64,000 nt of DNA, taken from NCBI GenBank assembly GCA_964036665.1, contig OZ038530.1, positions 14,541,001 through 14,605,000 on the forward strand, written 5' to 3'. Each line of letters begins with the position of its first letter. The stretch's first letter is position 1. The DNA is from Gordius sp. MW1. Lineage: Eukaryota; Nematomorpha; Gordioida; Gordea; Gordiidae. The notes beneath the pieces are model-generated. The model ran no database searches. It worked only from the letters and a program-made list of their open reading frames with translations, and was not told where the DNA came from. This document shows positions 5,063-59,811 of the stretch, piece by piece. The position numbers were made by a program, and so were the translations under genes.

Positions 5063-7626
5063 TTACGTTATTTGATTGATATGGGAGCCCAAATTTCACC
5101 AACAACAAAAACGAGGGTAACTTTAAATGAATTATGTTTAAAAGCAGCTAATTTGAGCAATATAAATACCTACGGGCAAATATCTTTAACATTGGATATA
5201 GGGTTAAAAAGAGAATTTAAATGGACTTTTTTGATAGCAGATGTTCATTCACCGATATTAAGTTCAGATTTTATATCACATTTTGGTTTAATAATTGATG
5301 TTAAAAATAAACGCATAATTAATCCACAAAATTATTCTCTAAATTTTCGAATATAACCAATTTCTCAATGCCATCTATAAACGGTCCAATTCCACATAAT
5401 AATAATATTTTTATACCATATTAAAACAATTTCCTGATATTACCAAGCCACCGAATTTTAATGACAAAGTGAAACATAATACCAAACAAAGGACCAGCGA
5501 TACATTGTTCTCCTCGACGAAATCCCGAAAAATTCCAAATAGCAAAAAAAGAATTTGAGGAGATGAGCAGATTATGCATAATACGACTACGACCCTCACA
5601 TAGTAAATGGTCATCCCCCTTACACATGGTCCCAAAAGATACCCCAGAGACATGTCGTCCATGTGGAGATTTTAGAATACTTAATTACGCAACAAAACCT
5701 GATAGATACCCAATCCCACATCTACATGATTTCGCTTTAAATCTAACAGGCAAACTCATTTTTTCAAAGTTGGATTTAGTAAAAACTTACCATCAAATTC
5801 CGATGACACCAGAGGACATCCCGAAGACCGCAAATACAACACCTTTTGGGCTTTTTGAATTTTTAAGAATGCCATTCGGAAAGCGGAAGGCAGAACAAAC
5901 ATTTTAGCGCCTCATAGATGATATTTTTAATGGTTTGGACTTTGTGTTTGCTTACATCGATGATATACCTATCGCCAGTTCCACAGAACATGAACACAAA
6001 TCTCTCAACAGTTTTTAAACGGTTACAAACATAAGGTATTCGTGTAAATCTATCAAAATGTTCTTTGGTAGTAAAATCATTAAACTTTCTCGGTCATCAT
6101 GTCGATCAAAGTGGCATACGCTCCTTGTCAAACAAAATTGATGCAATTAGGGATTTTCCGATTCCTCAAACGATGAAGAGTTCGAAGCGTTTTTTAGGTA
6201 TGGTAAATTTTAATAGACGTTTTATACCAAATTGTGCTTCATTTTCGAAACCACTTACCTACTTATTAAACAATGATGGGAAAGATATTAAATTAACGGA
6301 GGCAGAAATGAATTCATTTAATCTCTTAAAACAAAGTATAATTAAAGCAACTAATTTAGGATTTTTGAAACCAAACATTTGGTTAACATTAACCCATAGA
6401 CTAACATTAACCACAGATGCTTCGAACATAGCAGTTGGGGGAGTTTTGCATCAGGTAAGTGATAACAAACAAGAACCATTAGCCTTTTTTTCTCAAATTA
6501 TCAGCAGCTCAAACACGCTATAGTACATTTGGTCGAGAATTACTAGCTATTTTTCTGAGGATTAAACATCAAACACATACTAGAGGGACGCAATTTTACT
6601 ATATTTACGGATCATAAACCTTTAATTCATGCTTTCCAGGCAAAAATTGACTCACCCAAAGAAATCCGACATTTAGATTATGTCTCTCAATTCGGTACTT
6701 ACATTCGCTCTATAAAAGGTAATAGTAATATTACAGCGGACACATTATCTCGATCAGACATAACGTATTTAACTCTACCTATTTGTCCTAATGAGAGTCA
6801 AATAGTTTTGAACCAAAAGGATGATACTCAGTTATTGCTGAACACAAAATCTTTACGTCTTGTAAAATTAAAAAGCCCCGGTTGTCAAGAAGACATTCTT
6901 TGCGACATATCGACAGGTTCACCGCGACCACTTATACCAAAAGACCGAGAAAGTATTTCTTCGATCACTTTCACTCTCTTTTCATATCCCGGGATTCGGG
7001 CAACTCAAAGACTAATTACCCGCAATTTTGTGTGGCCATCGATGAACAAAGATATTCGGAATTGGACAAAAGAATGCATAAAATGTCAAAAGTCTAAGGT
7101 GAACAAACACACCATCACTTCACCTGGCATCTTTGACGACACCGACGAAAGGTTCAGTCACGTGCATTTGTATGTGGTAGGCCCTTTGCCACCTTCATCT
7201 CACTGCACCCATATTTTTCCAGCCATCGATCGCTTTAGGAGATGGTCAATTGCAATACCAATCAACGAGACATCAGCGGAAAATTTAGCAAGAATATTTA
7301 TTGAATACTGGATTGCCAACTTTGGTGTTCCAAAGGTAATAACTACTGATAGAGGTGCTCAGTTTACATCCAGTTTATTTCTAGAATTATCATCCACATT
7401 AGGATCTGACCATATCAAAACTACAGCCTACCACCCGTGTTCTAATGGTTTGGTTGAGCGGTTTCATAGGCAATTAAAAGCTTCAATCATGACACAAGAA
7501 GATGCGACAAAATGGAGTGGAACACTACCATTAATTCTTCTCAGCATTAGGTCGACAATCAAAGAAGATATCGGATACACTCCTTCGGAAATGGTTTATG
7601 GGAACGACGTTAAGGATACCAGGGGA
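5063..7626 (+). pseudogene. pol: Ty3/gypsy element C, 5' portion: protease, RT, RNase H, integrase
   Basis: A second gypsy lineage, different from A. In order: an aspartic protease with LIDMGAQIS near 5073 (the usual DTG/DSG is DMG here); RT fragments at 5563-5907 ([12 protein letters not shown]) and about 5940 with YIDD; a connection/RNase H region at 6065-6523 and on to about 6780 (TTDASNIAVGG, FTDHKPLIHAF); and integrase at 6808-7629 with the H/C zinc region (CIKCQKSK), TTDRGAQFTS and HPCSNGLVERFH. Frame changes occur near 5900, 6060 and 6520, and a base shift near 7600. At about 7626 it is cut by the inserted A/B cluster and resumes at about 23641. Confidence 0.85.
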
Positions 7627-8350
7627 TAATATGTCAAGCAACTCGTAATCTTTATTTCCAGCCAATCAATAAGTACAACAAGTGTAATAACGACAAATCA
7701 CGATCAATCAATTGAATAATGTTTTTTCAGTCAATCAATAATGTAAGTGAATATGTAAGTGTTAGGATGATGGCCTTGAGAGATCGTCGTGGAATCGGTC
7801 CGGTAGGATGAGTGTCAATATCGGAGGTATTTAATTGCGGGATGTTAAGCTTGTGGTTGATAATCGTAGTAAGGGAGAAGGGCAGGTATCTGGTCTGGCT
7901 CTTGATGGATTATTGCCGCTGGAACCACGTGTCTAAAATGAGGAATAAACATCTCCCACCCGCAGGACTAAACGTGTCCTGATTAAAAAACTAACAACCT
8001 CCTCCTGCAGGACTAAAAAATAACTAAACAAAATAACTAAATAAAATAACTAAATAAAATAACTGAATAAAATAACTAAATAAAATAATTGATCTTTCGT
8101 GGTCAACATCTCGCTATTTAAAACCCTGTCGAAGCGCCTCTCATTTGAATGGAGAATGCTTCTAGACAGTTGGATATATTGCACGTCTCCACTAACTTGA
8201 GACTGCCATTAGCATATTCGTTTACTTCTAATTTTAGTTAGCACGCTATCTCATTTGCGTAAGCGCCTTCATTAGTTTGTAAACATACTAAATCATACCT
8301 AACAGAACCATTGGTATATCTTTTATGCAAATAATTTCACACCTACAACA
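7627..8350 (-). repeat. Family B LTR, inverted (3' LTR of the copy at 8351-11150)
   Basis: About 724 bp. On the minus strand it starts TGTTGTAGG at 8350 and ends TTGACATATTA at 7627. It matches the LTRs at 18072-18771, 20753-21502 and 22568-23263. On its left it abuts family C integrase sequence directly. Confidence 0.8.
8020..8095 (+). repeat. 13-bp minisatellite inside a family B LTR
   Basis: About five imperfect copies of ATAACTAAATAAA. The corresponding place in other B LTRs (about 18320-18370, 21015-21075, 22975-23000) has fewer units, so the array length varies between LTR copies. Confidence 0.75.
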
Positions 8351-12099: not shown

Positions 12100-12235
12100 G
12101 TCAATGTAATTTTTTAAAATTTATACCTTTTAAAACTATCAATAAAAGTCATGTTTTAGTAAAACAGTTAGACGGGTCGAATCTCAAAATTTTGGGGGGA
12201 GTACGAAAGTTCGAGTATGTGCAGGCGAGGAAGTT

Positions 12236-15049
12236 TTGAAATTAGAGTTATTCGTTATCGATGAGAAGATAGATAATATTATGGGGTGGAATTGGATTAA
12301 ATTGATTGGGCCTCTAGTTAATTGGTGGGGCATTTGTAAAGATTCCACGTATAATAGAAAGATCTATTGTTTAATCAATAATGCTGATGACCATGCAACA
12401 CCCGGTTTCAAGGTAGCATCTATGCATAAATCCTTGGTTGTTATTAATGAGGCAATGGATGATCCAACCTCGGTTTCAGGGGCAAGGGTTTTTGTTGATA
12501 AGCCTCCGACCTCTGGTTGGGTTGATTGTGATGGTCAGTACGTCGGGAGACTGTGGCATTTTAACCTTGATAAGATTAAAGCTGAATTTTTGGAGATTTT
12601 TCGAGATGAATTAGGATGTTTATGCGATAACGTGTTTTCAATTAAGGTTCACTCAGATGCAATTCCTCGTTTTTGTCCTGCCCGTCGAATCCCGTTCATG
12701 TGGATTGAGAAGGTCAATAAAGTTATAGATAGTTGGTTAAAGGATAATGTGATTGAACCAATAGAGTATTCGGAGTGGGCTACCCCTTTAGTACCCGTTA
12801 AGAAAAATGACGGTAACATAAGGGTTTGTGCCGACTACAGAATAACTATTAATAAACATGTAATAGAGGTTAAATACCCCTTACCCAGAATAGAGATGGT
12901 CTTGGCTAATTTGAAAGGTTCTAGATTCTTTTTAAAGATTGACCTTAGGAATGCATACCTTCAGTTACGTGTAGATGATAAGACGTCTAAAATTTTAACA
13001 ATAAACACCGATAGAGGTTTGTTTGCTTTTAAACGATTACTTTTTGGTTTAAGTGTGTCAGCGCCAATTTTTCAACGAGCAATGTCTTCTATTTTTAATA
13101 ATTTAGATGGCATATTTTTCTATTTAGATGACATTTTGGTTACGGGTTCAACGCAAGCCGAGCATGACTCACGACTAGTTAATGTTTTATCTTTAATCAA
13201 GAGTAAAAATACGTGTTTCAGCGGATAAATGCATTTTTTGCGCAACTGAAATAACTTATTTGGGTCATATATTAGCCGATGGCGGGGTAAGGCCTACTTT
13301 AATTAAGATTGAAGCTATAAAAAATATGCAGAAGCCTAATAATAAAAAGGAGTTGTTTTCATTTTTAGGGCTTATGAATTATTATAGCAGATTTATTGAT
13401 AATTACACGAAGTTTTCGGGTCCCCTATACGAATTAACAAAAGATAATGTTTTGTTTAAATGGGAAGATAAAGAAGATCAATGTTTTAATTATTTAAAAG
13501 ATATTTTGTTAAAAGATTCCATCTTAAAATGTTTTGATCCGGTTAAATAGCACATCTTAAATGTTGATGCATCCAACACGGGTATAGGAGGAGCTTTATG
13601 TCAGGTCGAGGATGGAGTAGAACATCCTGTAATTTACTTTTCGCGTAAACTTAATGGGGCAGAACGCAATTACTCGGTGATTGAAAAAGAAGCGCTTGCT
13701 ATAACTTTTGGGTTAAAACGATGTAGGGAATATTTAATTGGCAAAACCTTTACAGTTTTTACCGATCACAAGCCTTTAATCAATTTGTTTCAAAAATTAA
13801 TACTGAATACTTGATGTCCCCACGTTTGCAAAGGTGGTTAATAATACTGGGTAATTTTTCATTAACATTAAAATATCGTAAAGGTAAGAATAATTGTTTA
13901 GCAGACGTTTTATCGCGTATGAGTGGTAATAACGAGAAGGCTGACAACGATATTGGGACCACGCAGACTAGTGACCATTACATTAAGGTATTAAAAATTG
14001 TTGAATTTAACGCCATAGTTAAGAGCTCAGAGACTGACCCCGATTTTATTAAAATAAAAGATGTTTTATTGGGTAATGAGGATAGTCAGTCGGTACCTTT
14101 CGCTTTTAAGCATGTGCTTAACGAGCTTTATTTGGAGGATAACGTAATTAAACGTAGCGAAAGAGTTGTCATACCTGCCGAGCTACGTGAGGATGTTTTA
14201 AAGGTACTTCACGAAGGGCATACAGGTATTACAAAGATGAAAGACATAGCTAGAAGGTATGTCTGGTGGCCTAAAATGACGAAAGGTATTGAAAGACAGG
14301 TTCGACAATGTGAATGGTGCAAGGCAAAGACGGCCATGCCTCGCAGAGACAAAGCGGCGAGATGGACACGTCCTAGTGGACCTTGGGATCGCATACACAT
14401 TGATTTTTTCGAACTTGAGAAAAAACGCTATATTTTAATTGTAGATGCTTTTTCGGGTTGGACTGAATTTAGAAAGGTTTTTAATATATCCACCCTGGTA
14501 ACAATTAATTTTTTAAAGGATTTAATTAGTTCGTATGGTTTTCCAAGGTGCGTAGTAACCGATAATGGCAGAGCATTTACTAGCGCCGATTTTAATAAAT
14601 TTTGTGAACAGTGGAAAATAAGACATGTATTTACACCACCATATCATCCAAGTTCTAATGGAGAGGTTGAGAGATATGTAGGTATAGTTAAAAAATGGAT
14701 TAGGTTATCTCAGTCTGGTAAGGACGGTACCTGGCTATATAGATTATATCATAACATGTCGCCCAGGTATCCAGATCGATTACCAGTAGGCGAGGAGTTT
14801 CTTAATCGTAAATTAAGATATCCGCCTGATTTTTTATTAGAATTAGATAATGATAATAATACTTTAACGACTATCCCTCGTTTTAAATTAAATCAGCTAG
14901 TATGGTCACGTAACTATGCAGGTGAACCCATGTGGGTTTTGGCACATATTATTGATCATATTGGTAATAAGATTTATAAAGTAAGACTTTTAGAAAGTCA
15001 GAAAGAGGAAGTAAGACATTTGGAGCAATTATTGATGCACGATGTCTGA
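12236..15049 (+). pseudogene. pol: Family A copy 2 pol, three inactivating changes
   Basis: 12236-13228 holds the protease tail, a conserved spacer (LINNADDHATPGF), and reverse transcriptase with FFYLDDILVTGS. 13260-13550 continues the RT connection. From 13811 RNase H ends and integrase follows, with the HHCC region (HEGHTG, CEWCK), the DDE residues (IHIDFF, VVTDNGRAFTS, then Glu in HPSSNGEVER) and a C-terminal tail to HLEQLLMHDV. Compared with the inverted sister copy it has a frameshift just before 13228, a TAG at 13548 and a small deletion near 13797. Without these it would be a normal-length gypsy pol; as it stands it is inactive. Confidence 0.85.
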
Positions 15050-16053: not shown

Positions 16054-18070
16054 TTAGACATCGTGCATCAATAATTGCTCCAAATGTCTTACTTCCTCTT
16101 TCTGACTTTCTAAAAGTCTTACTTTATAAATCTTATTACCAATATGATCAACAATATGTGCCAAAACCCACATGGGTTCACCTGCATAGTTACGTGACCA
16201 TACTAGCTGATTTAATTTAAAACGAGGGATAGTCGTTAAAGTATTACTATCATTATCTAATTCTAATAAAAAATCAGGCGGATATCTTAATTTACGATTA
16301 AGAAACTCCTCGCCTACTGGTAAACGATTTGGATACCTGGGAGACATGTTATGATATAATCTATATAGCCAGGTACCGTCCTTACCAGACTGAGATAACC
16401 TAATCCATTTTTTAACTATACCTACATATCTCTCAACCTGTCCATTAGAACTTGGATGATATGGTGGTGTAAATACATGTCTTATTTTCCACTGTTCACA
16501 AAATTTATTAAAATCGGCGCTAGTAATGCTCTGCCATTATCGGTTACTACGCACCTTGGAAAACCATACGAATTAATTAAATCCTTTAAAAAATTAATTG
16601 TTACCAGGTTGGATATATTAAAAACCTTTCTAAATTCAGTCCAACCCGAAAAAGCATCTACAATTAAAATATAGCGTTGTTTCTCAAGTTCGAAAAAATC
16701 AATGTGTATGCGATCCCAAGGTCCACTAGGACGTGTCCATCTCGCCGCTTTGTCTCTGCGAGGCATGGCCGTCTTTGCCTTGCACCATTCACATTGTCCA
16801 ACCTGTCTTTCAATACCTTTCGTCATTTTAGGCCATACCTTCTAGCTATGTCTTTCATCTTTGTAATACCTGTATGCCCTTCGTGAAGTACCTTTAAAAC
16901 ATCCTCACGTAGCTCGGCAGGTATGACAACTCTTTCGCTACGTTTAATTACGTTATCCTATAAATAAAGCTCGTTAAGCACATGCTTAAAAGCTAAAGGT
17001 ACCGACTGACTATCCTCATTACCCAATAAAACATCTTTTATTTTAATAAAATCGGGGTCAGTCTCTGAGCTCTTAACTATGGCGTTAAATTCAACAATTT
17101 TTAATACCTTAATGTAATGGTCACTAGTCTGCGTGGTCCCAATATCGTTGTCAGCCTTCTCGTTATTACCACTCATACGCGATAAAACGTCTGCTAAACA
17201 ATTATTCTTACCTTTACGATATTTTAATGTTAATGAAAAATTACCCAGTATTATTAACCACCTTTGCAAACGTGGGGACATCAAGTATTCAGTATTAATT
17301 TTTTGAAACAAATTGATTAAAGGCTTGTGATCGGTAAAAACTGTAAAGGTTTTGCCAATTAAATATTCCCTACATCGTTTTAACCCAAAAGTTATAGCAA
17401 GCGCTTCTTTTTCAATCACCGAGTAATTGCGTTCTGCCCCATTAAGTTTACGCGAAAAGTAAATTACAGGATGTTCTACTCCATCCTCGACCTGACATAA
17501 AGCTCCTCCTATACCCGTGTTGGATGCATCAACATTTAAGATGTGCTCTTTAACCGGATCAAAACATTTTAAGATGGAATCTTTTAACAAAATATCTTTT
17601 AAATAATTAAAACATTGATCTTCTTTATCTTCCCATTTAAGCAAAACATTATCGTTTGTTAATTCGTATAGGGGACCCGAAAACTTCGTGTAATTATCAA
17701 TAAATCTGCTATAATAATTCATAAGCCCTAAAAATGAAAACAACTCCTTTTTATTATTAGGCTTCTGCATATTTTTTATAGCTTCAATCTTAATTAAAGT
17801 AGGCCTTACCCCGCCATCGGCTAATATATGACCCAAATAAGTTATTTCAGTTGCGCAAAAAATGCATTTATCCGCTGAAACACGTATTTTTACTCTTGAT
17901 TAAAGATAAAACATTAACTAGTCGTGAGTCATGCTCGGCTTGCGTTGAACCCGTAACCAAAATGTCATCTAAATAGAAAAATATGCCATCTAAATTATTA
18001 AAAATAGAAGACATTGCTCGTTTAAAAATTGGCGCTGACACACTTAAACCAAAAGGTAATCGTTTAAAAG
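16054..18070 (-). pseudogene. pol: Family A pol, inverted copy (RT palm to integrase)
   Basis: Minus-strand counterpart of 13020-15049, very similar in translation: 17836-16958 is RT connection and RNase H, 16826-16482 is integrase core, and 16347-16054 is the C-terminal tail ending HLEQLLMHDV. It has its own breaks, different from the forward copy: a stop near 16960, a deletion of about 7 bases near 16838 and a frame change near 16490. It begins abruptly at about 18070 within RT, where a family B LTR starts on the opposite strand. Confidence 0.85.
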
Positions 18071-28050: not shown

Positions 28051-28798
28051 TGAGGAACGTTTTAATATAAAGGTATAACGATATAATGATTGGATATGGT
28101 AGTATATAAACACGACTTGAATATAGGTACCGATTCAAAATAGCGATATAATGTCCGCAATACACGTTTTTTGTGGGTTAAATAACTCATAGTTTTTAAC
28201 GTGCTGCATTCTTGATAATACCCAAAAAAACTTCATTTGAATTTTAGTACATATCTGCCTTTACTGCACGTTCGTCCCGTCCTATTTGCATGCCCGCGAA
28301 TTAGACTAACTTTAAATAACTTAAATAAAAACATATGTATAGTATGCAAATAATAAATATGTACCACAATATTATCATAGTTTACAAAAATTAAGTAACA
28401 AACATGTAAATATCTTCCATTCCTTAATACTTAATTTCAAAAAAACTTTTAATGGGAATTTTTTAGCAATTACTATTTAATAGCCATACTCTATAATCGT
28501 TATAAAATTTTTAGATGGAATAATTAGCATTTAATTATAATTTACAATAAAGTATTTGTGTGTTTTACTCGGGTACAAGTATATAAATAATCGTTGTATC
28601 AACTCGCCGGGTTAAATGATAGATTAATGACTTTACAAATTAACGAGTTCTTTTAAAAAAAAATTTATTTTCTTAATATATATATTTTTTGATTGCAATT
28701 AAATACATTACTTTATTCAAATTCCAACAATACGTTAAGTCCTTGATAAGCTAATTGATAAACCTTTATTATTTAATGATTTCGTAAAACTCTATGTT
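28051..28798. other. AT-rich sequence upstream of the XRN-like gene
   Basis: No gene seen. TATATAAAT at 28580-28588 lies about 215 bp before the ATG and could be a TATA box; this is not tested. Confidence 0.4.
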
Positions 28799-30742
28799 AT
28801 GGGAATTAAGGGTTTTTACAGCTATCTTAATAGAATATATGGATCCTCCTCGATTTCAATAAATAATGAGGGAGATTATAGGAACAAGCTGGAGGTGCAC
28901 CATTTATATCTCGATGCAAATTTTTTCATCCACAATTGTAAGTCTATGAATTATGGCCGCCTCGATAGGGTTACGTGGTTTACGAAACTATTTTATGAAA
29001 TAGATAGACTGATATTAGCCATCCAACCAATCAAATCGGTGTACATTTCATTAGATGGGGTACCACCAGATTCCAAAATAAATTTTCAAAGGCAAAATAG
29101 GTTTAGAACGATGCATAATCTCTGGAAGAAACAAAAGATTAGGTTGGGAGAAGTTAAAGATAAAGAAACATCATCAGTTATATCACCAGGATCCGAACTT
29201 ATGCAAGAAATTGCTGCCGAGCTCAAAAATTACATTTACCTTAAGCTTAATTTAGATCCAACATGGAAAAATATAGTTGTCATTTTATCTGATAGCAGCG
29301 TACCCGGTGAAGGAGAAGCAAAAATTATGAACTTTTTGTCGACGGAAACCTCTTCAAGGGCTTTAAATTGCAATTGTATAATAGGTGGGGATGCAGACTT
29401 GATAGTTTTAAGCTTGATCAAGAGATATTATCAAAACGTTTTAGTTCTAAATGCAAACGAAGCTGGCATTGGTAGATCGGGTTATCCTAGAATTCAAAAG
29501 GGATCTTATGACATGAATTATTACACGACAGACCGGTCTAGAGGTTACAGTAGTGATTGTGAAAGTAACAATGATTATGGGAAAAGTTATAATCAAAATT
29601 ATTTCCCAAATTCTTCGAGAAATCAGGCTTATTCGGGTTTTAATATTTCAACTTTGCGTTCAAAATTAACACAAAGTTTATATGACAAATACAATATATC
29701 ATTGTCTAATATGAATCAAAATGATCTAATGAACGATCTAGTAGTCTTAAGTTTTCTGCTTGGAAATGATTTTATTCCTGGCATGTTTTTTATTAACTCC
29801 AAAAATGGGATATGTGATATTGTTAAAATATATGCCAAAGTTTTGGACAATATAAGAAAAAGAAAACCACAGGATAATTTAGTAAACAACGGGGTGATAA
29901 ATCTTTGTTTCTTGAGCGAAATTTTTAGGGAAATAGCGGATAGTGAGATAAATTTTTTGAGTTCGTGTAGAAATAAAGAATCCATTTACGCTAATTCTTC
30001 AGATTCTGAAGATGATGAGCCCTTTGACATAACAAAGGTTAATGACGCTAATTGGTATTATTGTAACTACTTTGGGGAAAAGAAAAATATTGACGAAATT
30101 AGGAGCAAAGCCGCCTCAGAATATATTCAAGGTATCCATTGGAATTGGCAATACTATGTTGAAAAATGCACAGCCTGGTCTTGGTACTATCCTTTCCGTT
30201 ACCCTCCATTAGCCACAGATTGTGCCTCAATTATTGATATTACCTCTTACAATCGTTGGGTTGAATCCGCACCACCTCTTAAACCGCTCTCACACTTGAC
30301 TGCGATCTTAAATCCTAGCATGGAAGTGTATTTACCCAAATGCTTGGGAGATCTTATTAGGAGAAATGATTCGCTTATCATAGATATGTACCCAATCAAC
30401 TTCGAAATGTATTATGCACGAAAACAAGAACCAGATCAAGGCGTAGCCATGATACCATTCATGGAAAGAGATCGCATAACGCGCGTTATAGATCCATATT
30501 TACCCCTATTAAGTGTCGAAGAAAAGGTGAGGAACGAAGAAAATTTACCTGACCTCTATATTAGATCAGATCACGAATGTGTAAAAAACAACCTTTTCAA
30601 TCAGTCTTCTACTTTTTTACAGGGGCATGTTGTAAAGGTTTCAAATGCACCAAACAGCCAAGCAAAGATAATTTATCAAAGTAATTATTTTCCATCGTTG
30701 TCAATCAATAATAGTGTACTTGCTTACAAGTTATATACCTGA
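28799..30742 (+). CDS. XRN-family 5'-3' exoribonuclease, short and intronless
   Basis: 647 residues in one exon, ATG at 28799. XRN enzymes degrade 5'-monophosphate RNA. Visible motifs: MGIKGFYSYL at the N-terminus; DANFFIH (39-45); LDGVPPDSK with K93, Q97 and R101 of the 5'-phosphate pocket kept but N at 100, where yeast Xrn1 has Arg; SVPGEGEAKIM (167-177); GGDADLI (196-202); LLGNDFIPG (320-328); and the second conserved block near 455-480 (SWYYPFRYPPLATD). All acidic metal-binding positions I can place are present. The usual VPGEGEHK has Ala for His. Xrn1 exceeds 1,300 residues and Xrn2/Rat1 is about 900, so this is a compact form ending shortly after the second block. The residue 225-290 insert is Ser/Asn/Tyr-rich. 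No introns, unlike both neighbours, so it may be a retrocopy; a full-length frame argues it is functional. Confidence 0.85.
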   Translation: MGIKGFYSYLNRIYGSSSISINNEGDYRNKLEVHHLYLDANFFIHNCKSMNYGRLDRVTWFTKLFYEIDRLILAIQPIKSVYISLDGVPPDSKINFQRQNRFRTMHNLWKKQKIRLGEVKDKETSSVISPGSELMQEIAAELKNYIYLKLNLDPTWKNIVVILSDSSVPGEGEAKIMNFLSTETSSRALNCNCIIGGDADLIVLSLIKRYYQNVLVLNANEAGIGRSGYPRIQKGSYDMNYYTTDRSRGYSSDCESNNDYGKSYNQNYFPNSSRNQAYSGFNISTLRSKLTQSLYDKYNISLSNMNQNDLMNDLVVLSFLLGNDFIPGMFFINSKNGICDIVKIYAKVLDNIRKRKPQDNLVNNGVINLCFLSEIFREIADSEINFLSSCRNKESIYANSSDSEDDEPFDITKVNDANWYYCNYFGEKKNIDEIRSKAASEYIQGIHWNWQYYVEKCTAWSWYYPFRYPPLATDCASIIDITSYNRWVESAPPLKPLSHLTAILNPSMEVYLPKCLGDLIRRNDSLIIDMYPINFEMYYARKQEPDQGVAMIPFMERDRITRVIDPYLPLLSVEEKVRNEENLPDLYIRSDHECVKNNLFNQSSTFLQGHVVKVSNAPNSQAKIIYQSNYFPSLSINNSVLAYKLYT

Positions 30743-48773: not shown

Positions 48774-51700
48774 TTAATCTATATGTTGTGTTACCGTTCC
48801 AGCAGTCTTAGCGATGTATTGTTGCTCAAGTGTTGAAGCTAATTCTGCAAAGGTAGGGCGCTCACTAGGGTCGGCATTCCAACAAGATTTCATCACCTCA
48901 AACCTGAAAAAAAAATTAACAAAGTTTAATATACATACTTTTAAATTAGCAACAATGTATTTAGTTTTGCATAAAAACACTAGTTGAATGCTATATAAAT
49001 TACGATTAACAAAACCATGAGCGTAGCCAGCATTGGGATTAGAGGGGGGGGGCATTTATGATTTAGGGAAGGGCAATATGATCATTTTTAAATATTTAGC
49101 CATGATTTTAATAAATTTTAACAAATTTTAGGATTTAGAAGGGGCAGTCGCCCCTCCCTGCCGCTCCTTGGCTACGCCTATGAACAAAACTTTTAAATTA
49201 TATTATTATAAAAAGCTTAAATTCATCCTTTTCAAACGTCAATTATTTACATCTCGTCCGAGCAATTTAAAGGTTTGGCCATGCGATATCCACCTATCAC
49301 TTTCTCTTTAACATCCATATTAGTCATGTTAGGGTATGGTGGTTCGCCATAGGTAACCAATTCATATAAAAGCACCCCGTACGCCCAAACATCTGATTTC
49401 TCGGTGTACCGATTTAGAGTCATACATTCTGGTGCCAGCCATTTTATAGGCAAATTTTTCGTTCCCTTAACAATTAAAGAATTAAATACTTGGTTTTAGG
49501 GTTTTTGTGCATCAGCCTAAAATTTCTTTTATTTATGAATTAAATGCATTTTTAAGCTTTGCACTATTTAATATGTGTACAAACGTTAGACACTATTCAG
49601 GCAATTGTATACGAAATGTTAAGCAATATACTCAATTTTTTACAATAATATCGAGGATAGCATAATAAGAATCGATATTTGACGAGCATTGGACTCGGTT
49701 TAAAAATTAGCCTCTAAATAAAACTAAATCTTGACCCATTGCATATGATCGCTTGTCATTGCTATGGTTGAATTCCGAACAAAAATGATAATAGCAAGCT
49801 AGGTTTTAAAGTTGGTTTTAAAAACTAGGTAGTAATAGGTTTTTACCTATTGATATAGTTTTTATACCTCTTTAATGGCAATATTTTTAATAGGGCTGAT
49901 AACAGCATTTAAATTAATAAAACTTTTTTTTTCTTTAACAAATACATAGATGTTTACATCTTATTTGCAATATTGGCTATTTGAACTAAAAAAGTTGCAT
50001 TTTAGTTTATTGCAAAAATTATAAGGCGATTACTAATAATAAAGTAAAAGCATAAAGATCGAATGAGTAGTCATTACATATTTCAATCTAACGTATAACC
50101 CGTGATCGCGAGCTAAACCGAAATCGCACACCTTCGGTATATTTTCATCGCCAAGCAGAACATTTCTAGCAGCCAGGTCCCTGTGAATTATCTGCTCGTA
50201 ATAAGTTATTAATTTATATATATATATATGTGATAAATAAATATTATTAAGATATTTAAATATAAATTATAAATATCTCGAGTATTCTTAATGACTCCGT
50301 TCTCGGCTAAATGGGACATTCCTTTGGCTATGCCCATTGCGAGTTTGAGGAGATCATTGCTCGAACATTGAACCTGGTATTGTTTGACTTTCCCCAGAAA
50401 TGATTTAAGATCGCCGTTGTTGCAAAATTCAGTGCATATGTACAGCATACCTGTAAAAGGATTTCATATGTAAAAATAACAATTTTTAATATTTAAGGTT
50501 CTTTTTCACCCTTTGTTGAACCTTATATTGATACCTAAAAGATTTTTTGTTGTAACCGGGTATTCCTATACTTACCTTCAGACTTTTAATTATTACAGAC
50601 TATAAATTTTTCAATGGAATTGTAAGAGTAGAGATTGCGGAAGGTCTCAATACCTTTTCTGCCCATTATCTTAAATTTACGAAAAAACATCCTCCAAACC
50701 TCTTGAAATTGTGGCCTCAAACTTTCTATTAAGCCCTAAGTAAACAATTGTGCTGAATTTTTAATTAAATCGTAAAAATCTTAAATAATAAGGATTTGAT
50801 AGAAAAGATTGAGATCCTCATATAGATTTGTTAACATCAATCCAAACATGAAGTGGGTACACCAACATAAGCGTTAAAATATAATTATAGTATAACATAT
50901 GATTTAAAGAGCTTTAAATATATTCAAAAGATATTCAATTAATAAGCAAAAAAAATTGCTAGTATTTTCTGAAGATGAGCTTTATCTGCTCAAAATATCC
51001 AGTGCCATTTCCTTCTACTCAGTTTATAAATTCAGCCTTACCTCAATATTATAACAAAGGATTGTCTTTCATAAAGACCCACTCATTTACAAAGTATTTT
51101 AATAAGTATTTTTTGCAAAACAGTCAAACCCGTTTAATTGCAAAGCCTTGGGCCTGAAAAGGAATACGCGATTAACCGATATTTCGCGATTAAACGATGG
51201 AAATAAAAGTATATGTACATTATATTAAATATTCATTTCTTACGCTTCACAATAAAACGATATTTTATATAATTATCTGGTTGAATTAAGGACTCGAAAA
51301 TGTTTGTGTATATCCGATATTGTACTATTAAGCGATTTGTCAATAAACGATGTTTTTGTTAATATTATCGTTTAAAAAAACAAAATGGCGGTTAACTTCG
51401 CGATAATTCGATTTGCGATTAAGAAGTTTCGACTGTTTACTGTAGAATATATTAAAAAGATTTTACCCTGATTTACTATTGCGCCGATCGTATTTACAAT
51501 GTGGGGGTTGATTGGTAACTGTGCCATTATGGTCAATTCCCTTACCGTTTCAATGAACGCACCTTGTTCCGCTAATGCATCGTTACCAGCTAAAGTTGCA
51601 TTAAAACAAGATAGTTTATAAATTTTAGCGTGAGATTTTATAGCATAAAAAAGGTGTATAATTTTCGCCATAAAAATTGGACTTTTTAAAGAGTGCCATT

Positions 51701-52153
51701 AAAATTACGAATTACAAACTTGACCACTATATTTTACAGCTGTACCCAGTCTCTCAGATGTGTATTGCATAAATTGAATAACTATTTAACATAAAAATTA
51801 TTTGTTCACTAAGATAATAAATTAATTAGCATTTTTGTCATGTCCAAAAACAGTGGTTATAAATCTTGTATACTTTATTCGGTCAAATTAATTATAACGA
51901 GTTATGTTTTTCTTGCCAAAAATGTTTTCAGCTCTCAAGCTTATTAATGATTTTTAAAACTTTATTCATACCTCCAGCTGCTTTTAACATTTTTACAGCA
52001 GTTGGGATTTCGGCATCTCCAAGTCGATAAATTCCTTTCTTTACAAGTCCAAAATGGCCCTGTCCCAATACTTTTTCTTCTAAGTTAAGTTTGTCCCATT
52101 CCAATCGCAAATGATCCCAAGGTATATCCCAGATCTCGGCTTTAATTTGACCC
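48774..52153 (-). CDS. Tyrosine kinase exons of the fusion gene
   Basis: All catalytic elements present: LGQGHFG glycine loop (758-764), Lys in PTAVKML (783), helix-C Glu in VRELTIM (807), [10 protein letters not shown] (Asp 887), CDFGLAR (905-910), LPIKWLAPE (925-933), [20 protein letters not shown], and the final [15 protein letters not shown]. The HRDLAARN and PIKWLAPE motifs are tyrosine-kinase specific. Activation-loop tyrosines are Y915 and Y920. The entry [15 protein letters not shown] resembles the segment just before RTK and Src-type kinase domains, but no membrane helix precedes it. After the kinase only about 15 residues remain, with no SH2 or tail domain. It is predicted active; its subfamily cannot be assigned. 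Confidence 0.85.
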
Positions 52154-55100
52154 CTTGATAATAAGTTATCTTCTGATCAATAAACTCAATATAATTGTAC
52201 AAAGAGAATATCTTACTAATATTGCACATTTGATGCAATTATTAACTTTAATCAATCACGTAAAATTTTAGTTATGGTTTAGATAAATAAATATTACATG
52301 TTTATAAAATTACTAATAAAATAAATATTTGTGAACCTTATAGAGGCACATATTGGGTCTACAGCGGTAGCACGTTTACTAAAACTTTGTGATTCCCATT
52401 GTTCTGTTTCGGTGTTAAATTTTTCGATGGAATTTGTAAGTTTACCCCCTTGGCAAATCCCGTTGATAACGTAAAAATACTTGCCTAAAATCGTAGAGAT
52501 TACCATTTACACTTTGGACTTAAACTTAGAAATTTATAAATTTTAAAACAAATAATCTTTACCCACTGTCATTATGGCGAATTTATAACGGGGCACTTTA
52601 AGCGTTTGATACGGTATCCAATTATCATATTCGATGTCATACTTGTAAACTTCGTTGCAAGGCACAAGATCTCCCAATGATTTTCCAGTGGCACCACCAA
52701 CGTGATAAAGGTTACCAGCGGATTCGATGAGTCCCTGATGACACATAGGTTTGGGTAATGGCTTTGCTTGTATCCATCTACATTAAGAAATGTCAAACAT
52801 TAATTCAACTTTAAGCTAAGTTTTGTCAGACGTGTAAAGGTAAAAAACGGTGTCATAGTCAGACGTAAGATTTACTGGTAGATTTTACAAGGTAATACAA
52901 AATTAATAAATTATATAGTTCTGCTCATTATAGCAATTTATACAAAATGAATCTAGAGTGCGCCATATAAATGAAAGTTGAGAATTTCAAATTGACGAAG
53001 TAAGCATATCATCTGGGTGTTGAGTGAAGCAGGTGAGGTTAAGGAGAGCCAAGTGCTTGCGCGTTTTTGGTGTTACAATAACATTTTTAAACTCGGCCCA
53101 ATATTCGTATTAGAGTTGGAATTTAAAGATGATGTGTAAGAATTGTAATATAAGAGATTTATTAACTTAATATATAAGGGTCAAATTAAATGTTTGTATG
53201 GAACTGAGATGTGTAAATAGGTCGATCACAATATTTGTAACTTTGCTACCGTAAAATGTGTACGGTTTAATATGTTTTGCCAGGCTAGAGAATGAGCTAA
53301 ATCCATTTATTTGAATTGTAACGTAGAAAATACAACCAAACATGGGCGTAACCAGGTTTTGGATTAGGGAGGGGGGGAGCAAAACGTTCAAAAGTTCAAT
53401 TAGGGAGGGGCAAAACATAAATTTTTTAAATTTTCAAGGGTTTTTGCATTAAATTTTTCGTGATTTAGCCCCCCCCCACTGGCTACGCTCATGCAATCAA
53501 ATAAGGCTTGTATCGCAATATTCTTAGAATTTAAAATGGGGACCATAAAAGAGAATAGTAAAGAGCCGTAGGCTACATGTAGCCTAGATGCTTGGGTAAG
53601 CTGTTATAATATAAATGCCGCAATGATTTTTATGCAGTCAAATATAATTAATTAGCAAGCACTATATTTTGAAAGATTTAACATGCTTTACACTTTATCA
53701 AATGGGTTGTAAACTTCAACAGTATCCAATATAGTTTGCTGGCCATTAGAGTCGTAACCAATTCCGCCTACAACAAATATTTGCCTTTGGAATTCACCTG
53801 CCCCGCAGCCGTATTTTGGTTCTGCAAGCTTTGGCATAGAACGCCAAGCATCACACACCTCAGTATAGGCAAAGACTTCGTCAGAAATCCTAAAAAATGA
53901 AATTTTCTTTTAGGAGAATGAGCTAATTTTATTATTTAAGTTTAGACAAAATTCAAAAATTCTAGACCCCTTCTTATCTGAATTGCAGACGAGTGTGGAC
54001 GTGTGGTGGTTATTTTGTAAAAGTCTATAAAATGTATACATTGAAATATTTGCCTACATTACAATGACTGTTTTTAATTTAAAGATTAGATTACTTCTTT
54101 TATTTCGACACTTAGATTTCCAAAAATACGTTTTTGGCAATAATTATTAAAATACATTTGAAATACACATATCACGGTGATGGATGCTTGGATATAAATG
54201 TGTTATAATAAAACAATTGTATAATAGGTTTAATGATGTCTCATTAATCTTTCGGTTATATATTAAGTTTATAAATTGTAACTAGGTATTTCACCTCTAA
54301 AACTCATATATTTTTCGTATTTTCTTCACACAAACATGGGCGTAGCCAGGTTTGAAATTAAAAGGGGGCAATAATGATTTAGAGAGGGGCAAAATGATAA
54401 TTTTTTGAATTTTTATCCATAATTTTATAAAATTTTAAAAAATTTCTGGATTTAAAGGGGGGCATCCGCCTCTCATTGCCACCCTCTGGCAGCCCACGCA
54501 CTTAAATCATGGTAATATACTAACCCATTGTCCAAATTGATGCCACCTACGATATAAACTTCACCGTACATTGCGCAAACAGTGTGAGAGATTTTAGATT
54601 CTGGCATAGGCTGAATTGGTGTCCAGCCTTTTGAATAAAACATTTTCCAGCACGTCGAACAGGCTCCTGTTTGGCGGTCTTCTTCGCTACTTATTTGGTA
54701 AGAAGCTTATTCAATATGAAAAACAAACAGAATTCACTTATAATAATCAATGTATCATATAAAGTTTTTTTGTTTCATAAACCCATTTTGAAACGGGGAT
54801 AAATAAAACATATTCCATTAGACATAATGTTAAATAATTGCTTTGATACATTTTTAATTTTATAATGCACATTAAATCAGGATAATAAATATTTTAAAAC
54901 ATTGATAAATTAGACATAACTTTTTCAAATTTAAATAAAAATTTAACATTAAAATCCAATATCGACTTTAAAGCTTAATAAGTGAAATCCGTGTGGTTAC
55001 CCATCAAATAAATTGTATTAAGTTTAATATCGTTAGCTATTGGTATGGGCAAAAAGTCCATGAGCGGTGCGTCAAAATGAATTTCGGCCCTTGGTGGGGC

Positions 55101-58100
55101 ATCAGCCAACGTTTTATCTGGTTCAAATGGTTCTACTGGCCTAAATATTAATCAATCAAATTATTTAATATTGATCAGGAACACATTTGTTTATTATCAA
55201 ATTAGAAACAATAAAATAAATTAGTTGTGAAAATTTACGAAATTAATTTAACTTAACGGTTTGCTAAACACCCTTAAGGGAGGACGTTATAGTCTTAAAT
55301 ATAATTTTTTGTGAAATAATACTTAACCTGAAGGAGGATTTTCTTCTGGACTTAGGTATAGAGATTCGACTTTCTTTTAGCGAGGAATCGATGGCTTAAG
55401 ATTTGTAAGCATTAAAATAATATACCAAATCAGTCAATATTACATTGCATATAATACCAAAATATTCTCTTAATATATATATAATGTTACATGTTTTTGA
55501 TTTTCTTGATTTTCTAGTTTTTTTAGTTGATTTGTCATCGGCCCTATAAACACATTATTGCGCAAATTATATGTATTACCTTCAAAAAGTTCTAAAATGC
55601 TGACAAATATTTTGAATAGGTATGATGTAAGATGTTGATTATGATTAAGGATTTAATATTCAAAAATAGAATCAAGGCTGCAGGTTGTTTAATAATAATT
55701 ACATTAATACCTAATTATGAGTTAATAATTATCCAAGGAGGAGTTAAATTTTAACATTTATTGATGTTAAAAGGAGCCTAGCAATTCAAAATTTTTTTAT
55801 TTATAAAAGGCAATTCATACTTGTTAGGGGTTATAATTAAGTTTTCTTTTGTGGGCACATCCTCGTGCTCCCTTTAAATAAATAAAGTAGCCTTTTCGAC
55901 ACATTAAATAAATACCTGATAGGAGAAATTTTCTTTTGATATATCGCTGGCACGGGTGGCGTTATGTTCTTTATCTATTTGTGCAAAAATAGTCATATAA
56001 AAGTACAGCTTTATCTGAATAAAATTTATATTTCTTAATGGCTCAAGGCTCAATATGTCAGCAACGTTGGTTTTTTTAAATTTATGCTTAAAAATAAAGT
56101 AGCATGTCAGCTAACATAAATCCTTGGTTTTTAATGATAGTCTAAATGTTTTCCAACTTTGCCTTTTTTTTAAAGCCTTACAAATCTCCATAAAGAAAAC
56201 AATTGCACGTGCCAAAAAAGCTTTAGTTATTTTTGAAAATGTTCAAAAAATTACGAACATTAAAAGAATGAATCGTCCAAACAAAATTAGACTTCCCTCT
56301 ACATTCGTTTATGGACGGGTTTAATTATAAATGCCATCAAATTATTAAAAATGGATAGATTTTTCCAGGAAAATTAGAATTGTTAAATTATCAAGATCTT
56401 TTCGAATGATGCTTCTTCCCATATTAGTTTTTTAGATGATAGATGATTACCTTAAGTTTTGACAATCGTTTTAAAAGACTGAATGATTTTTTAGTGGTTT
56501 TTAATGGTGATTTATGTGATGATCCGATATCGGCTATCATCTTGTGAATTTCTTTGTGTGCACTCGATTCCGCTTTATGTGTTTTTTTAATTGAACAAAC
56601 ACAGCTTATTTCGCCACATCTTTCGCAAGATTTTAATTGGAGCTTTGGCGTTGATCTAAACTTCTCAAACAACGACAATATGGACCCACGAACTATTAAT
56701 AATAGCAAATAAAAGTGGAAAAACATTAATGCAATATTGACGAAAGCAAAGCAATATATTGGCCTAAATTTGAAAAGCCTAATTTTTTTATAATAGTTAG
56801 GTGTGTGTACAATAATATTTCTTTATACGATTTTATAACAAAACAATGTTATAAATAAAACAATGTTATAAATACAATAAACATTGGCATCTCATATATA
56901 TAGTGTACACGTGACCAATTTTTATTTCCCATTGATCGAATAATTAAAGCAACAATAACAAGTTGTTAAACTTTAAAAATGAAAATTTAATTTCCTATGA
57001 GTAATGATATAAATAATTAAATCTGAAACTTACCATTATTAGAATTAAGGCTGCTAACGCTCTCCCCTGACAGGCTTGATTTTATGCTGCCTTTTTTAGA
57101 AAAAAGTGATCTCCATATTGATGTCCTATAAATTATATAAACCCGTTGTCTCAACAATATTGAATACATCATATATTAAAACATTTAATTTCGTATTAAT
57201 TTAAATTGCCTATAGATGGCGCTAATTAGAGGAAACTTTTAATTTAATTGCGGCATCCCTCAAAGGGGTTATTATTATCTTCTGATTATTATTAAAAACC
57301 CGAAATTAATTTTCTAATATCTAATATGAAAAAAATTAATAAGTTGCTGTTTTAAAATTAAGTCCAACCTGAGTTTAATAGCAAATGTAAAATATAGCCT
57401 TTGATTTAAAATACATTTTAATTACCCTCTAACCACGATAGGTTTGTCATACGTTTCTATGAAAGGCTCCTCCAGGTCAACCATTTCGAATTTTTTGGCT
57501 ATGACCTCGAAAATCTTTTAATAAAATTTATTTGTAATAAACGTCAGATGTATATTTCAAAGGATTCTATAATTAGTTTGTAATAACCTTAAATTATCAA
57601 TAATCTACAAAATTCGAAACGGATATTATACCTCTTTAATATGAGAGGAAAATTTGTTAATACTGTTATTCTTTTTATATTGCCATAATTTCAAATGAGA
57701 ATATTGATAATCAATAATATATTAAAATTAAATAAAGTTGAAATAATGTGTAATATATTTCATACCTTTGATAATATTTAAGATAAAATTTTAAATGTTT
57801 GTAAATTTTTTTTTAGGCATTTTATGAAACTATAAAAAACTATAAAAATTTAGTAACTTAAAAATTACCGTATTATCAGGGACGTAAAAAGGGTCGTAGC
57901 ACCATCGCGGATTAGGATATGGGTATGCCATTATTTCTGGGTAACCACTTTCATACATTTCCCTCCACCTTTTATAAACAGATTCATTGGAAAAAGTAAA
58001 GATTTTATTTAAATTTTTTCGGTTTTTGTTTTTATGAAAGATTATAAGAGTACGGAAATTACCACTGGTAATAAGTTATAGAGTTTTTGGGAGCTGGTCT

Positions 58101-59811
58101 TGCGAAAATATCCATTTCTCCCATCGCGTAGCACATTTGAATCGTTCGCAATGGCAGATAGGGCCAACGCACTTTATATCATATAAAAATTAAAATAACA
58201 TCATATTCTTCTTATAGACTTTTATGACTCGAAGTATCACAACTGATTCACATCTCGACGTAAAAAATGGTTTATTATTGTACAAGTCTTAATACAGTCA
58301 AAACCGTTTAATTGCAAAGCCTTGGGCCTGAAAAAAATCGCGATTAGCCGATATTTCGCGATTAAACGATGGAAATAAAAGTATATGTACATTATATTAA
58401 CCATTCATTTCTTACGCTTCGCAATAAAACGATATTTTATATAATTATCTGGTTGATTTAAGGACTCGAAAATGTTTGTGAATATCCGATATTGTACTAT
58501 TAAGCGATTTGTCAATAAACGGTTTTTGTTAATATTATTGTTTAAAAAAAACAAAATAGCGGTTAACTTCGCGATAATCCGATTCGCGATTAAGAAGTTT
58601 CGACTGTATATTTTTTCTATTGATTAAATTAAAAAATATATATGAGATTTTAAAAATTGGACCTGTGTTTATGACTTCGTCCCCTAAGGGGGTACATGCT
58701 GACATCTTATTCCCTATGATCCATCGACCCGCGGCCGCGAAAATATCCATTTCCGAAGATATCTTTAATCCATCGTATTGCAATAGTTGAGTAACAAGTT
58801 GTGGACTCAAGGAAAGGAAAGTCGACATATTCGCGACTTCCAAAAAATCTAAACAAAATTTGAAAGTTAATTTTTGACTAATAAATAACACGTAGACTTA
58901 TTGACCGCTCAACCCCTACATAATCGCGCATGAAAGGTGATTCTAAAAACGACCGCCATTTTAATCATCTGTGTTGTTTTTCTATTGGGACGAATTGTAT
59001 TTGTCATCATTAGTCTTACAATATGTTGTATATCAAATCATTTTAGTAGTGATTTTATGAAGTCTTTAAACCTCATTGATTAAGCAGAATATAATTAGAA
59101 AAATAAGTTGCATTGTATAGATGATGCTATAATAATTAATTTTGTTTAGGAGTTTTCTATTTTTTTAAATGTATATTTTAATCTTAACAGGATTTAGCTG
59201 ATGATATCCTAAATGTATTATTATATTAAAATAGATATATAAGGAGTAGCTAATATAAACGTTTTCCTAACCATCGAGTTTACATGATCAATATGGATGA
59301 CAAAATTTGGAACAATTTTTAAAAGGGGTGAGCTATCTATATGTCTTAATAAATCTCAATATCTTGTGTGACAAAGTACAGTAGGAATTACCAGGCCCGA
59401 CGTATTCGATAACTCTCTTGATTAAATCGGAATTTTCAAAGAGTTCCGCCAACTTTAAATATTCGCACCACAGTTCCTTATTATAGGGGAGCATCCCTAG
59501 AATTTTCAGTAAAATCCTTTTTTTAAACAATATTCATAACATTCATATGAATTAGTTGACAATAGTTTTATTGGAGGACCTGTATCGAAATAAGTCAAGA
59601 CGTGAGCCACTGCCTCGGGCCTTGAACACACGTTTTTGGGTAAAATCACCCCGTTATCAGGTTTATAGGTCGCAATGGCTTGAGAAAAAAATGATCCAAA
59701 ATTTTTCAACGAACTATAGCGAACATGAAATCTCTCCTGTCCAACCACAATAGGTATCGTACTATCGTATGACCGCGAGGGATAGTAGTTATTATACATC
59801 TGATAAAACAT
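48774..59811 (-). CDS. BTB-BACK-Kelch-tyrosine kinase fusion protein, 23 exons
   Basis: My model, minus strand: 59811-59580, 59496-59392, 58848-58663, 58171-58063, 57968-57869, 57505-57426, 57125-57034, 56692-56451, 55974-55916, 55871-55821, 55599-55580, 55394-55328, 55140-55001, 54666-54525, 53889-53692, 52777-52563, 52484-52337, 52153-51972, 51589-51467, 50450-50296, 50191-50078, 49465-49251, 48903-48774. Total 3,105 bases, 1,034 residues; every intron is GT...AG and every phase matches. Domains: BTB about 15-115, BACK about 116-245, Ser/Lys-rich linker 246-447 with a [11 protein letters not shown] cluster, Kelch about 480-728, tyrosine kinase about 740-1020. BTB-BACK-Kelch proteins are usually CUL3 substrate adaptors; here a kinase replaces the C-terminus. 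No signal peptide or membrane segment is seen, so a cytosolic protein is inferred. Least certain are the 20-base exon, the GTCATT donor at 50295 and the junction 52337/52153 that makes the fusion. Confidence 0.75.
49016..49182. mobile_element. G-tract MITE in the last intron of the fusion gene
   Basis: CATGAGCGTAGCCAGC at the left, GGCTACGCCTATG at the right, and a perfect 8-bp duplication AACAAAAC (49008-49015, 49183-49190). 167 bp, wholly within the intron 49250-48904. Confidence 0.85.
51121..51435 (+). mobile_element. Tc1/pogo-like MITE copy 1
   Basis: Starts CAGTCAAACCCGTTTAATTG and ends GAAGTTTCGACTG; about 315 bp. It lies in the intron between kinase exons 51589-51467 and 50450-50296 and is highly similar to 58295-58606, same orientation. 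Confidence 0.7.
52337..55140 (-). CDS. Kelch propeller exons of the fusion gene
   Basis: Five exons with Kelch blades: VYIVGGIN (exon 54666-54525), IFVVGGIG (53889-53692), LYHVGGAT (52777-52563) and the degenerate FYVINGIC (52484-52337), each followed at the usual distance by a Trp ([31 protein letters not shown]). IYLMGA near residue 491 may open a further blade. Kelch propellers bind protein substrates. The last exon ends CASI plus AG and joins the kinase exon in phase. Confidence 0.8.
53341..53493. mobile_element. G-tract MITE in a Kelch intron
   Basis: CATGGGCGTAACCAGG at the left, TGGCTACGCTCATG at the right; flanks CAACCAAA and CAATCAAA (one mismatch). In the intron 53691-52778. Confidence 0.75.
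54335..54500. mobile_element. G-tract MITE, decayed right end, in a Kelch intron
   Basis: Left end CATGGGCGTAGCCAGG clear, right end eroded (about GCAGCCCACGCA). Target duplication not visible. Confidence 0.55.
55328..57968 (-). CDS. Linker exons of the fusion gene
   Basis: Eight exons (57968-57869, 57505-57426, 57125-57034, 56692-56451, 55974-55916, 55871-55821, 55599-55580, 55394-55328), all phase-consistent. The product is charged and Ser/Lys-rich. It has a Cys cluster ([11 protein letters not shown], residues 324-334), AIYQKK after a PPVP stretch, and [14 protein letters not shown], a basic-Ser site that other kinases could modify. No domain recognised. The 20-base exon ILELFE is inferred only because its phases (2 in, 1 out) and splice sites fit. 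Confidence 0.6.
58063..59811 (-). CDS. BTB and BACK exons of the fusion gene
   Basis: ATG at 59811. Exon 1 has [20 protein letters not shown] and [20 protein letters not shown], the BTB core in which a ligand-like strand is followed by the conserved helix. The intron starts inside GATACAG/GTCCTC, and exon 2 (59496) restores [20 protein letters not shown], a typical BTB end. Exon 3 (58848) opens the BACK region: [20 protein letters not shown] and [14 protein letters not shown]. Exon 4 has [20 protein letters not shown], the late BACK helix. BTB domains mediate dimerisation and, in Kelch proteins, CUL3 binding; whether this one does either is not known. Confidence 0.8.
58295..58606 (+). mobile_element. 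Tc1/pogo-like MITE copy 2
   Basis: CAGTCAAAACCGTTTAATTG to AGAAGTTTCGACTG, flanked on both sides by TA (58293-58294, 58607-58608). The TA duplication and CAGT termini fit the Tc1/mariner-pogo group. It sits in the intron after the first BACK exon. Confidence 0.75.

Follow-up and report, generated by a model that had tools for sequence, protein, structure and literature searches.

Does a single gene of a horsehair worm join a Kelch propeller to a tyrosine kinase, or have two neighbouring genes been read as one? The question is raised by a stretch of 64,000 nucleotides of Gordius sp. MW1 (contig OZ038530.1, positions 14,541,001 to 14,605,000; hereafter the window), in which a sequence-only reading had proposed a BTB-BACK-Kelch adaptor fused to a tyrosine kinase. 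We find that the gene is real, that it is conserved in a second horsehair worm and that it is made from known parts. The reading that we favour, and hold to be probable, is that of a nematomorph gene for a soluble, receptor-derived tyrosine kinase that would be aimed by its Kelch propeller, with a BTB/BACK end that would pair copies of the protein.

The gene model and the Kelch-kinase junction

Rebuilt from the DNA with all reading frames and lists of splice sites, the gene occupies the minus strand from 59811 to 48774 in 22 exons, with GT/AG borders throughout and phases that agree (Table 1). With the Kelch-kinase junction at 52337/52153 the model comprises 3,126 nucleotides and 1,041 amino acids in a single open frame, from an ATG at 59811 to its only stop at 48774, and its domains follow in the order weak BTB-like stretch, BACK, Ser/Lys-rich linker, about five Kelch repeats and tyrosine kinase. 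The sequence-only reading had given 23 exons, 3,105 nucleotides and 1,034 residues; its fused open model in phase stands, these figures do not, and its exon list agrees with ours at the Kelch-kinase junction and differs at some linker or BTB borders, the exact earlier list not being reproduced. A first version of our model, of 1,055 residues and with the junction at 52314/52172, was used for the Pfam scan, the protein search and the structure search with the kinase part; the exon-by-exon alignment with Gordionus, the search with residues 1-250 and the inspection of motifs used the corrected version of 1,041 residues.

Exon 16 can be joined to exon 17, and hence Kelch to kinase, in phase at either of two junctions, 52314/52172 and 52337/52153, and position-weight scores from 20 sites did not settle the choice between them (donors, 2.9 bits for 52314 and 3.4 for 52337; acceptors, 1.4 for 52172 and 7.2 for 52153, the latter an ordinary value). 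The comparison with a predicted protein of Gordionus, P0001, is more informative. Across the junction point this protein reads QRGQLKAETWEIPW, with which the window agrees when joined at 52337/52153, and in the longer junction stretch QRGQLKAETWEIPWPSLKLDW the gap nearest to the junction, relative to the window, is of one residue and lies about four residues before it. Because the P0001 peptide aligns across the 52337/52153 reading, we take this junction, which the sequence-only reading had also chosen, to be the right one; 52314/52172, at first preferred, is ruled out by the same alignment. A further argument comes from exon 17, the first of the kinase. No ATG follows the in-frame stop upstream of it until the G-loop is reached, and the exon must therefore be spliced to upstream sequence; over the 7.5 kilobases (kb) upstream, the exons belong to the Kelch gene. 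As judged from the sequence, the Kelch-kinase fusion is confirmed as one gene.

P0001 is the uncharacterized protein LOC135929892 isoform X2 of the nematomorph Gordionus sp. m RMFG-2023, predicted, with 910 residues. In a search of about 5.8 billion proteins, in which 527 of 7,988 scored candidates passed, it matched the model with an expectation value (E) of 6.8e-242 and 46% identity over 83% of the query. It starts inside exon 4 and is colinear with exons 4-22 through linker, Kelch, junction and kinase; identity per exon from exon 4 onward ranges from 4/20 (exon 9) to 32/38 (exon 20), and the kinase parts are 62% identical. The two proteins thus have the BACK end, linker, Kelch and kinase in identical order, whereas the Gordionus record lacks a BTB, holds only the end of BACK and carries about 29 extra carboxyl-terminal residues in the alignment. 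The sequence-only reading had suggested a search for full-length homologues in related genomes, and this long colinear homology over exons 4-22 is what that search returned; P0001 is in all likelihood the orthologue of the window gene. Among the best 120 of the 527 matches only P0001 joins Kelch with kinase. The other 119 align through the kinase (coverage 14-36%, together with the Pfam columns), and the best of them are mostly receptor kinases. When the Kelch part of P0001 was used as the query, 11 out of 1,013 candidates were retained, and P0001 alone had a kinase domain in its Pfam column. With residues 1-250 alone as the query, all 507 candidates fell outside the limit of E 10, which says little, only relatives sharing exact words being detectable. 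No paper on a nematomorph Kelch kinase was found among the open papers searched, as judged by titles and the beginnings of abstracts.

A possible donor (ACG/GTAACA) precedes the stop within 48774-48795, and a further 3' exon may exist, Gordionus having the extra residues mentioned above; a P0001-like carboxyl-terminal extension sought in the window by tblastn was not found (best E for the tail 0.19). Two introns of the gene hold a repeat (51167-51439 and 58339-58610) whose two copies, 7.2 kb apart, are 93-96% alike.

Table 1. Exons of the Kelch-kinase gene and the intron at its junction, in window coordinates, with the observations bearing on each.
Feature	Position	Strand	Evidence
Exon 1: start codon and BTB-like amino terminus	59580..59811	-	BTB 12.9 bits, E 0.13
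Exon 2: BTB-like stretch (end), BACK (start)	59392..59496	-	Model and amino-terminal Pfam scan
Exon 3: BACK	58663..58848	-	BACK residues 88-187, E 5.5e-14
Exon 4: end of BACK; first exon aligned by P0001	58063..58171	-	14/36 aligned residues identical
Exon 5: BACK-to-linker	57869..57968	-	11/28 aligned residues identical to P0001
Exon 6: linker	57426..57505	-	7/27 identical to P0001
Exon 7: Ser-rich linker	57034..57125	-	9/28 identical to P0001
Exon 8: Lys/Ser linker with CxxC	56451..56692	-	21/64 identical to P0001
Exon 9: linker	55916..55974	-	Phase fit; 4/20 identical to P0001; 90% alike in C8 partial copy
Exon 10: basic linker	55491..55543	-	Phase fit; 4/17 identical to P0001
Exon 11: linker	55328..55394	-	Phase fit; 9/19 identical to P0001
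Exon 12: conserved stretch and first Kelch strands	55001..55140	-	25/44 identical to P0001
Exon 13: Kelch	54525..54705	-	33/61 identical to P0001
Exon 14: Kelch	53692..53889	-	37/65 identical to P0001
Exon 15: Kelch	52563..52777	-	34/71 identical to P0001
Exon 16: last Kelch repeat and closing strand	52337..52484	-	22/50 identical to P0001; P0001 model matches Keap1
Intron of 183 nucleotides, Kelch and kinase joined in phase	52154..52336	-	Junction peptide conserved in P0001; weak donor, ordinary acceptor
Exon 17: juxtamembrane-like W-D-I-P-W, G-loop, catalytic Lys	51972..52153	-	41/60 identical to P0001
Exon 18: kinase N-lobe	51467..51589	-	21/41 identical to P0001
Exon 19: kinase	50296..50450	-	29/52 identical to P0001
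Exon 20: activation-loop tyrosines	50078..50191	-	32/38 identical to P0001
Exon 21: APE and C-lobe	49251..49465	-	47/72 identical to P0001
Exon 22: kinase end and stop codon	48774..48903	-	17/42 identical to P0001

Propeller, kinase and amino terminus

In the Pfam scan Kelch_1 matched in three stretches (E 7.1e-21), and the propeller is Keap1-like, the model of P0001 matching Keap1. PK_Tyr was matched with E 1.1e-79. Inspection of the model found the catalytic motifs in place, including the G-loop, the catalytic Lys at model residue 790, APE and SDVW, in agreement with the earlier claim of a kinase with all its catalytic residues, and two activation-loop tyrosines, in GLYVR-KYG, are common to the window protein and P0001. 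The kinase is of the receptor type, with a juxtamembrane-like W-[DE]-I-P-W segment, and its solved relatives (best 60 of 2,670) include EGFR, Tie2, FGFR, PDGFR, Kit and a designed Src-Abl ancestor. With the Tie, FGFR, RET and torso receptor kinases it shares this juxtamembrane-like start and a kinase domain that is about 33-43% identical among the matches listed. It differs from them in that no ectodomain is seen in the model, Kelch and BACK being there instead, and no transmembrane-like stretch, the highest 19-residue Kyte-Doolittle mean being 1.17.

For a tree of 55 rows we took 47 of the 120 listed kinase matches, hand-chosen for variety, together with the window kinase and seven kinase domains of its own genome, leaving out one Ser/Thr-like kinase (L007) of that genome. 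The window and P0001 kinases are sisters at 100/100. Another kinase of the genome (L003) has a CDIPW segment and, by eye, FN3-like and transmembrane-like stretches. At C1:22409013-22414526 (L001, L002) there is an intronless open frame of 1,838 codons with five tandem tyrosine kinase domains and no obvious ectodomain. Its domains 2-4 look degraded by eye, its segments YWDIPYDKL and YWVIPWDDI resemble the W-D-I-P-W found in the Kelch kinase, and three of its domains lie on very long branches of the tree.

At the other end of the protein BACK is clear, with E 4.7e-13 for the full version of 1,055 residues and 52.5 bits (E 5.5e-14, residues 88-187) in the scan of the amino terminus. BTB was not listed in the Pfam scan of the whole protein of 1,055 residues. 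With the amino-terminal 126 residues alone, compared with 24,736 models, it is the sole family listed, and the match spans profile positions 12-105 of 110 at 12.9 bits (cut-off 20.5, E 0.13). Because a BTB had been proposed in advance, the probability of such a score is that for a single model, about 0.13/24,736, a value far below 0.13, and we take the amino terminus to be BTB-like but divergent. Among solved structures, the amino-terminal 244 residues matched KLHL3 (E 0.00045) and gigaxonin (0.002) best of eight, within the BACK part.

A phi-x-E motif and a 3-box are features by which such proteins bind CUL3. Both were sought by inspection of a single automatic alignment of the window protein with P0121, a BTB-BACK-Kelch protein from the database, and neither is visible in it: the window has I-A-T where P0121 has F-I-E, with no Glu in the loop, and a gap of 32 residues stands against the P0121 segment between BTB and BACK. 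By eye, no likely missing exon was seen in the frames between exons 2 and 3, though one may exist. With a BTB below its cut-off, these two features not seen and a Gordionus record without BTB, it is unlikely on the sequence evidence that the protein joins CUL3, and the recruitment of CUL3 that had been suggested is not borne out. Of the proposed adaptor-kinase, BACK, Kelch and kinase are found in that order; the BTB is the part that scores below its cut-off.

The proposed function and its alternatives

We propose that the Kelch propeller would hold a partner or scaffold and so bring the kinase close to its substrates, a role that in other kinases falls to an SH2/SH3 module or to a ligand-binding ectodomain. 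Two copies would be joined by the BTB/BACK end, if it still pairs, with mutual phosphorylation of their activation loops as the result, and the gene may have arisen when a KLHL-type gene gained receptor-kinase exons before the two sampled horsehair worms parted. A wider claim, which we put forward tentatively and with distinctly less confidence, is that the protein may represent a novel class of non-receptor tyrosine kinase among animals, one that became fixed in horsehair worms, in which Kelch replaces SH2/SH3 or the ectodomain as the reader of substrate or location, BTB/BACK replaces the ligand as dimeriser, and a receptor kinase has been made cytosolic and ligand-free by gene fusion.

Several points weigh against a kinase of this kind. 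On a crude score drawn from few sites, donor 52337 is weak, at 3.4 bits compared with 5.1-10.0 for the 20 training donors. P0001 is itself a gene prediction, and the fusion is known here from genomic sequence and prediction, with no transcript seen. The same two points would suit a KLHL gene lying next to a separate tyrosine kinase gene, the two wrongly merged by both readings and by the NCBI prediction; but the first kinase exon of such a pair would lack an ATG ahead of its G-loop and have a stop just upstream, and the junction peptide is conserved in Gordionus, so that we consider this very improbable. In the tree the sister branch of the two worm kinases consists of three octocoral Tie-like or FGFR-like kinases at only 80/81, and for this reason no firm receptor class can be given. 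The predicted structure is poor apart from the Kelch region (mean pLDDT, the predicted local distance difference test, 46.0), and no packing of Kelch against kinase is readable from it.

The BTB score also counts against the proposal, since with a match below the cut-off dimerisation is unsure. Together with the start of P0001 at window exon 4 and the empty search with residues 1-250, that score would fit a working protein without BTB, whose transcripts begin inside or after BACK and whose linker, Kelch and kinase act as a monomer or are clustered by a Kelch partner. We regard this as rather unlikely: the clear BACK extends past the end of exon 3 into exon 4, which Gordionus shares, and isoform X2 may just be short at its 5' end. 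BACK and Kelch are also what one would expect if the protein were an adaptor for CUL3 substrates and phosphorylated them as well, so that phosphorylation and ubiquitylation were coupled. The weak BTB, the lack of phi-x-E, the stretch missing at the 3-box relative to P0121 and the Gordionus record without BTB nevertheless make such an adaptor improbable. Least probable of all is a decaying gene or inactive pseudokinase; a partial copy on contig C8 has decayed, but the window copy is open throughout, with its catalytic motifs in place and the kinase identity to Gordionus given above. The reading that we retain is the soluble kinase aimed by Kelch and paired by its BTB/BACK end.

The partial copy (C8:2651.5-2656.1 kb; L021, L022) was considered as an unfused parent gene and rejected, being a decayed duplicate that runs from exon 7 into exon 15. 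Its aligned DNA pieces are 81-91% identical to the window (one piece of 47 nucleotides, 98%). The copy has one stop, and five gaps fall in its exons, all of lengths not divisible by three, in an automatic alignment that may have misplaced some gaps. At codon positions 1, 2 and 3 the two copies differ at 18/373, 27/373 and 39/374 sites, 44 codons differing by amino acid and 29 silently, and in the less surely aligned introns at 663 of 3,026 positions. This lower divergence of the exons is the pattern that constrained coding sequence would be expected to show.

Genome context and known systems

The genome was scanned over 211.8 Mb in 12 contigs. By eye, among the matches listed from three scans (155, 57 and 80 matches, the first of them incompletely listed), the nearest other Kelch-kinase or BACK-kinase neighbours are two pairs, each probably of separate genes: a kinase at 2,549-2,553 kb with BACK 34 kb downstream (C6:2549-2587 kb), and BACK at 11,147 kb, followed 46 kb downstream by a kinase-like match (C3:11147-11195 kb). 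One neighbour scan did not have the window's own Kelch exons among its listed matches, and a like gene would escape that scan; a scan used in tracing the C8 partial copy is better suited to the purpose. On the mitochondrial contig, C12, the 4.3 kb around a cox1 match with TGA codons (L024 1501-2838) contains perfect inverted repeats on either side of it, with arms of 108 and 95 nucleotides (pairs up to 400 nucleotides apart), and no listed arm lies inside the cox1 match; cox1-like copies also occur in contigs C1, C3, C4, C5 and C8. Perfect inverted repeats of great length are described for mitochondrial genes, though never for cox1, as reaching an exceptional scale in Nematomorpha (PMC6649704), and the repeats seen here accord with a nematomorph genome. 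Four genomes of the phylum are listed in another source, which names Acutogordius, Nectonema and Gordius aquaticus and gives 8,717 to 11,114 genes for three of the four (PMC11603191). Elsewhere in the window, translations read by eye suggest pol-like open frames of Ty3/gypsy-type retroelements at 726-1481, 6035-7629, 12146-15049 and 16054-17899, and an open frame of 667 codons on the plus strand at 28739-30742 resembles an XRN-type 5'-3' exoribonuclease.

KLHL proteins of the BTB-BACK-Kelch type end with the propeller. The window protein has the BACK and Keap1-like propeller of this family (Keap1, KLHL3), whereas it runs on into a kinase and its CUL3-binding features were not seen. The BACK-Kelch-kinase architecture lies, to our knowledge, outside the known animal kinase families, and we agree with the sequence-only reading that no standard metazoan one is known to have the order BTB-BACK-Kelch-kinase. 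Animal tyrosine kinases follow few regulatory plans, recruitment usually relying on a ligand or on the binding of phosphotyrosine by SH2 or of proline motifs by SH3. A Kelch-aimed kinase, if the proposal is true, would follow a different one that has persisted since the two horsehair worms diverged. That both parts are familiar folds makes it less surprising.

One of the nearest parallels is from amoebae. EhSrc of Entamoeba histolytica and EiSrc of E. invadens are described as having Kelch motifs and a Src-like kinase without SH2/SH3, and an interaction of EhSrc with actin is reported (PMC5648430). Like the window protein they hold Kelch and kinase in one chain; they differ in coming from an amoeba, the homology of human Src and EiSrc being put at 13.87%, and the likeness to the worm protein is one of description. 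No BTB or BACK is mentioned in the passages seen of the same source, and its authors found no propeller in their model (PMC5648430). The novelty is limited accordingly by two facts, that Kelch with kinase has already been published for EhSrc and that the Gordionus relative is already in NCBI without a name.

A second comparison is with tumours, in which BTBD1-NTRK3 and other kinase fusions occur (PMC7016819) and KLHL7-BRAF is reported (PMC6769482). KLHL7 is a BTB-family protein by its domain make-up. Here too a BTB-family protein is joined to a kinase, and we infer that the BTB would drive dimerisation of these fusions; they differ from the window gene in being somatic, not a gene of an animal lineage. 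If the proposed function is true, the horsehair worm gene would be their germline counterpart and could serve as a natural experiment on the restraint of such fusions.

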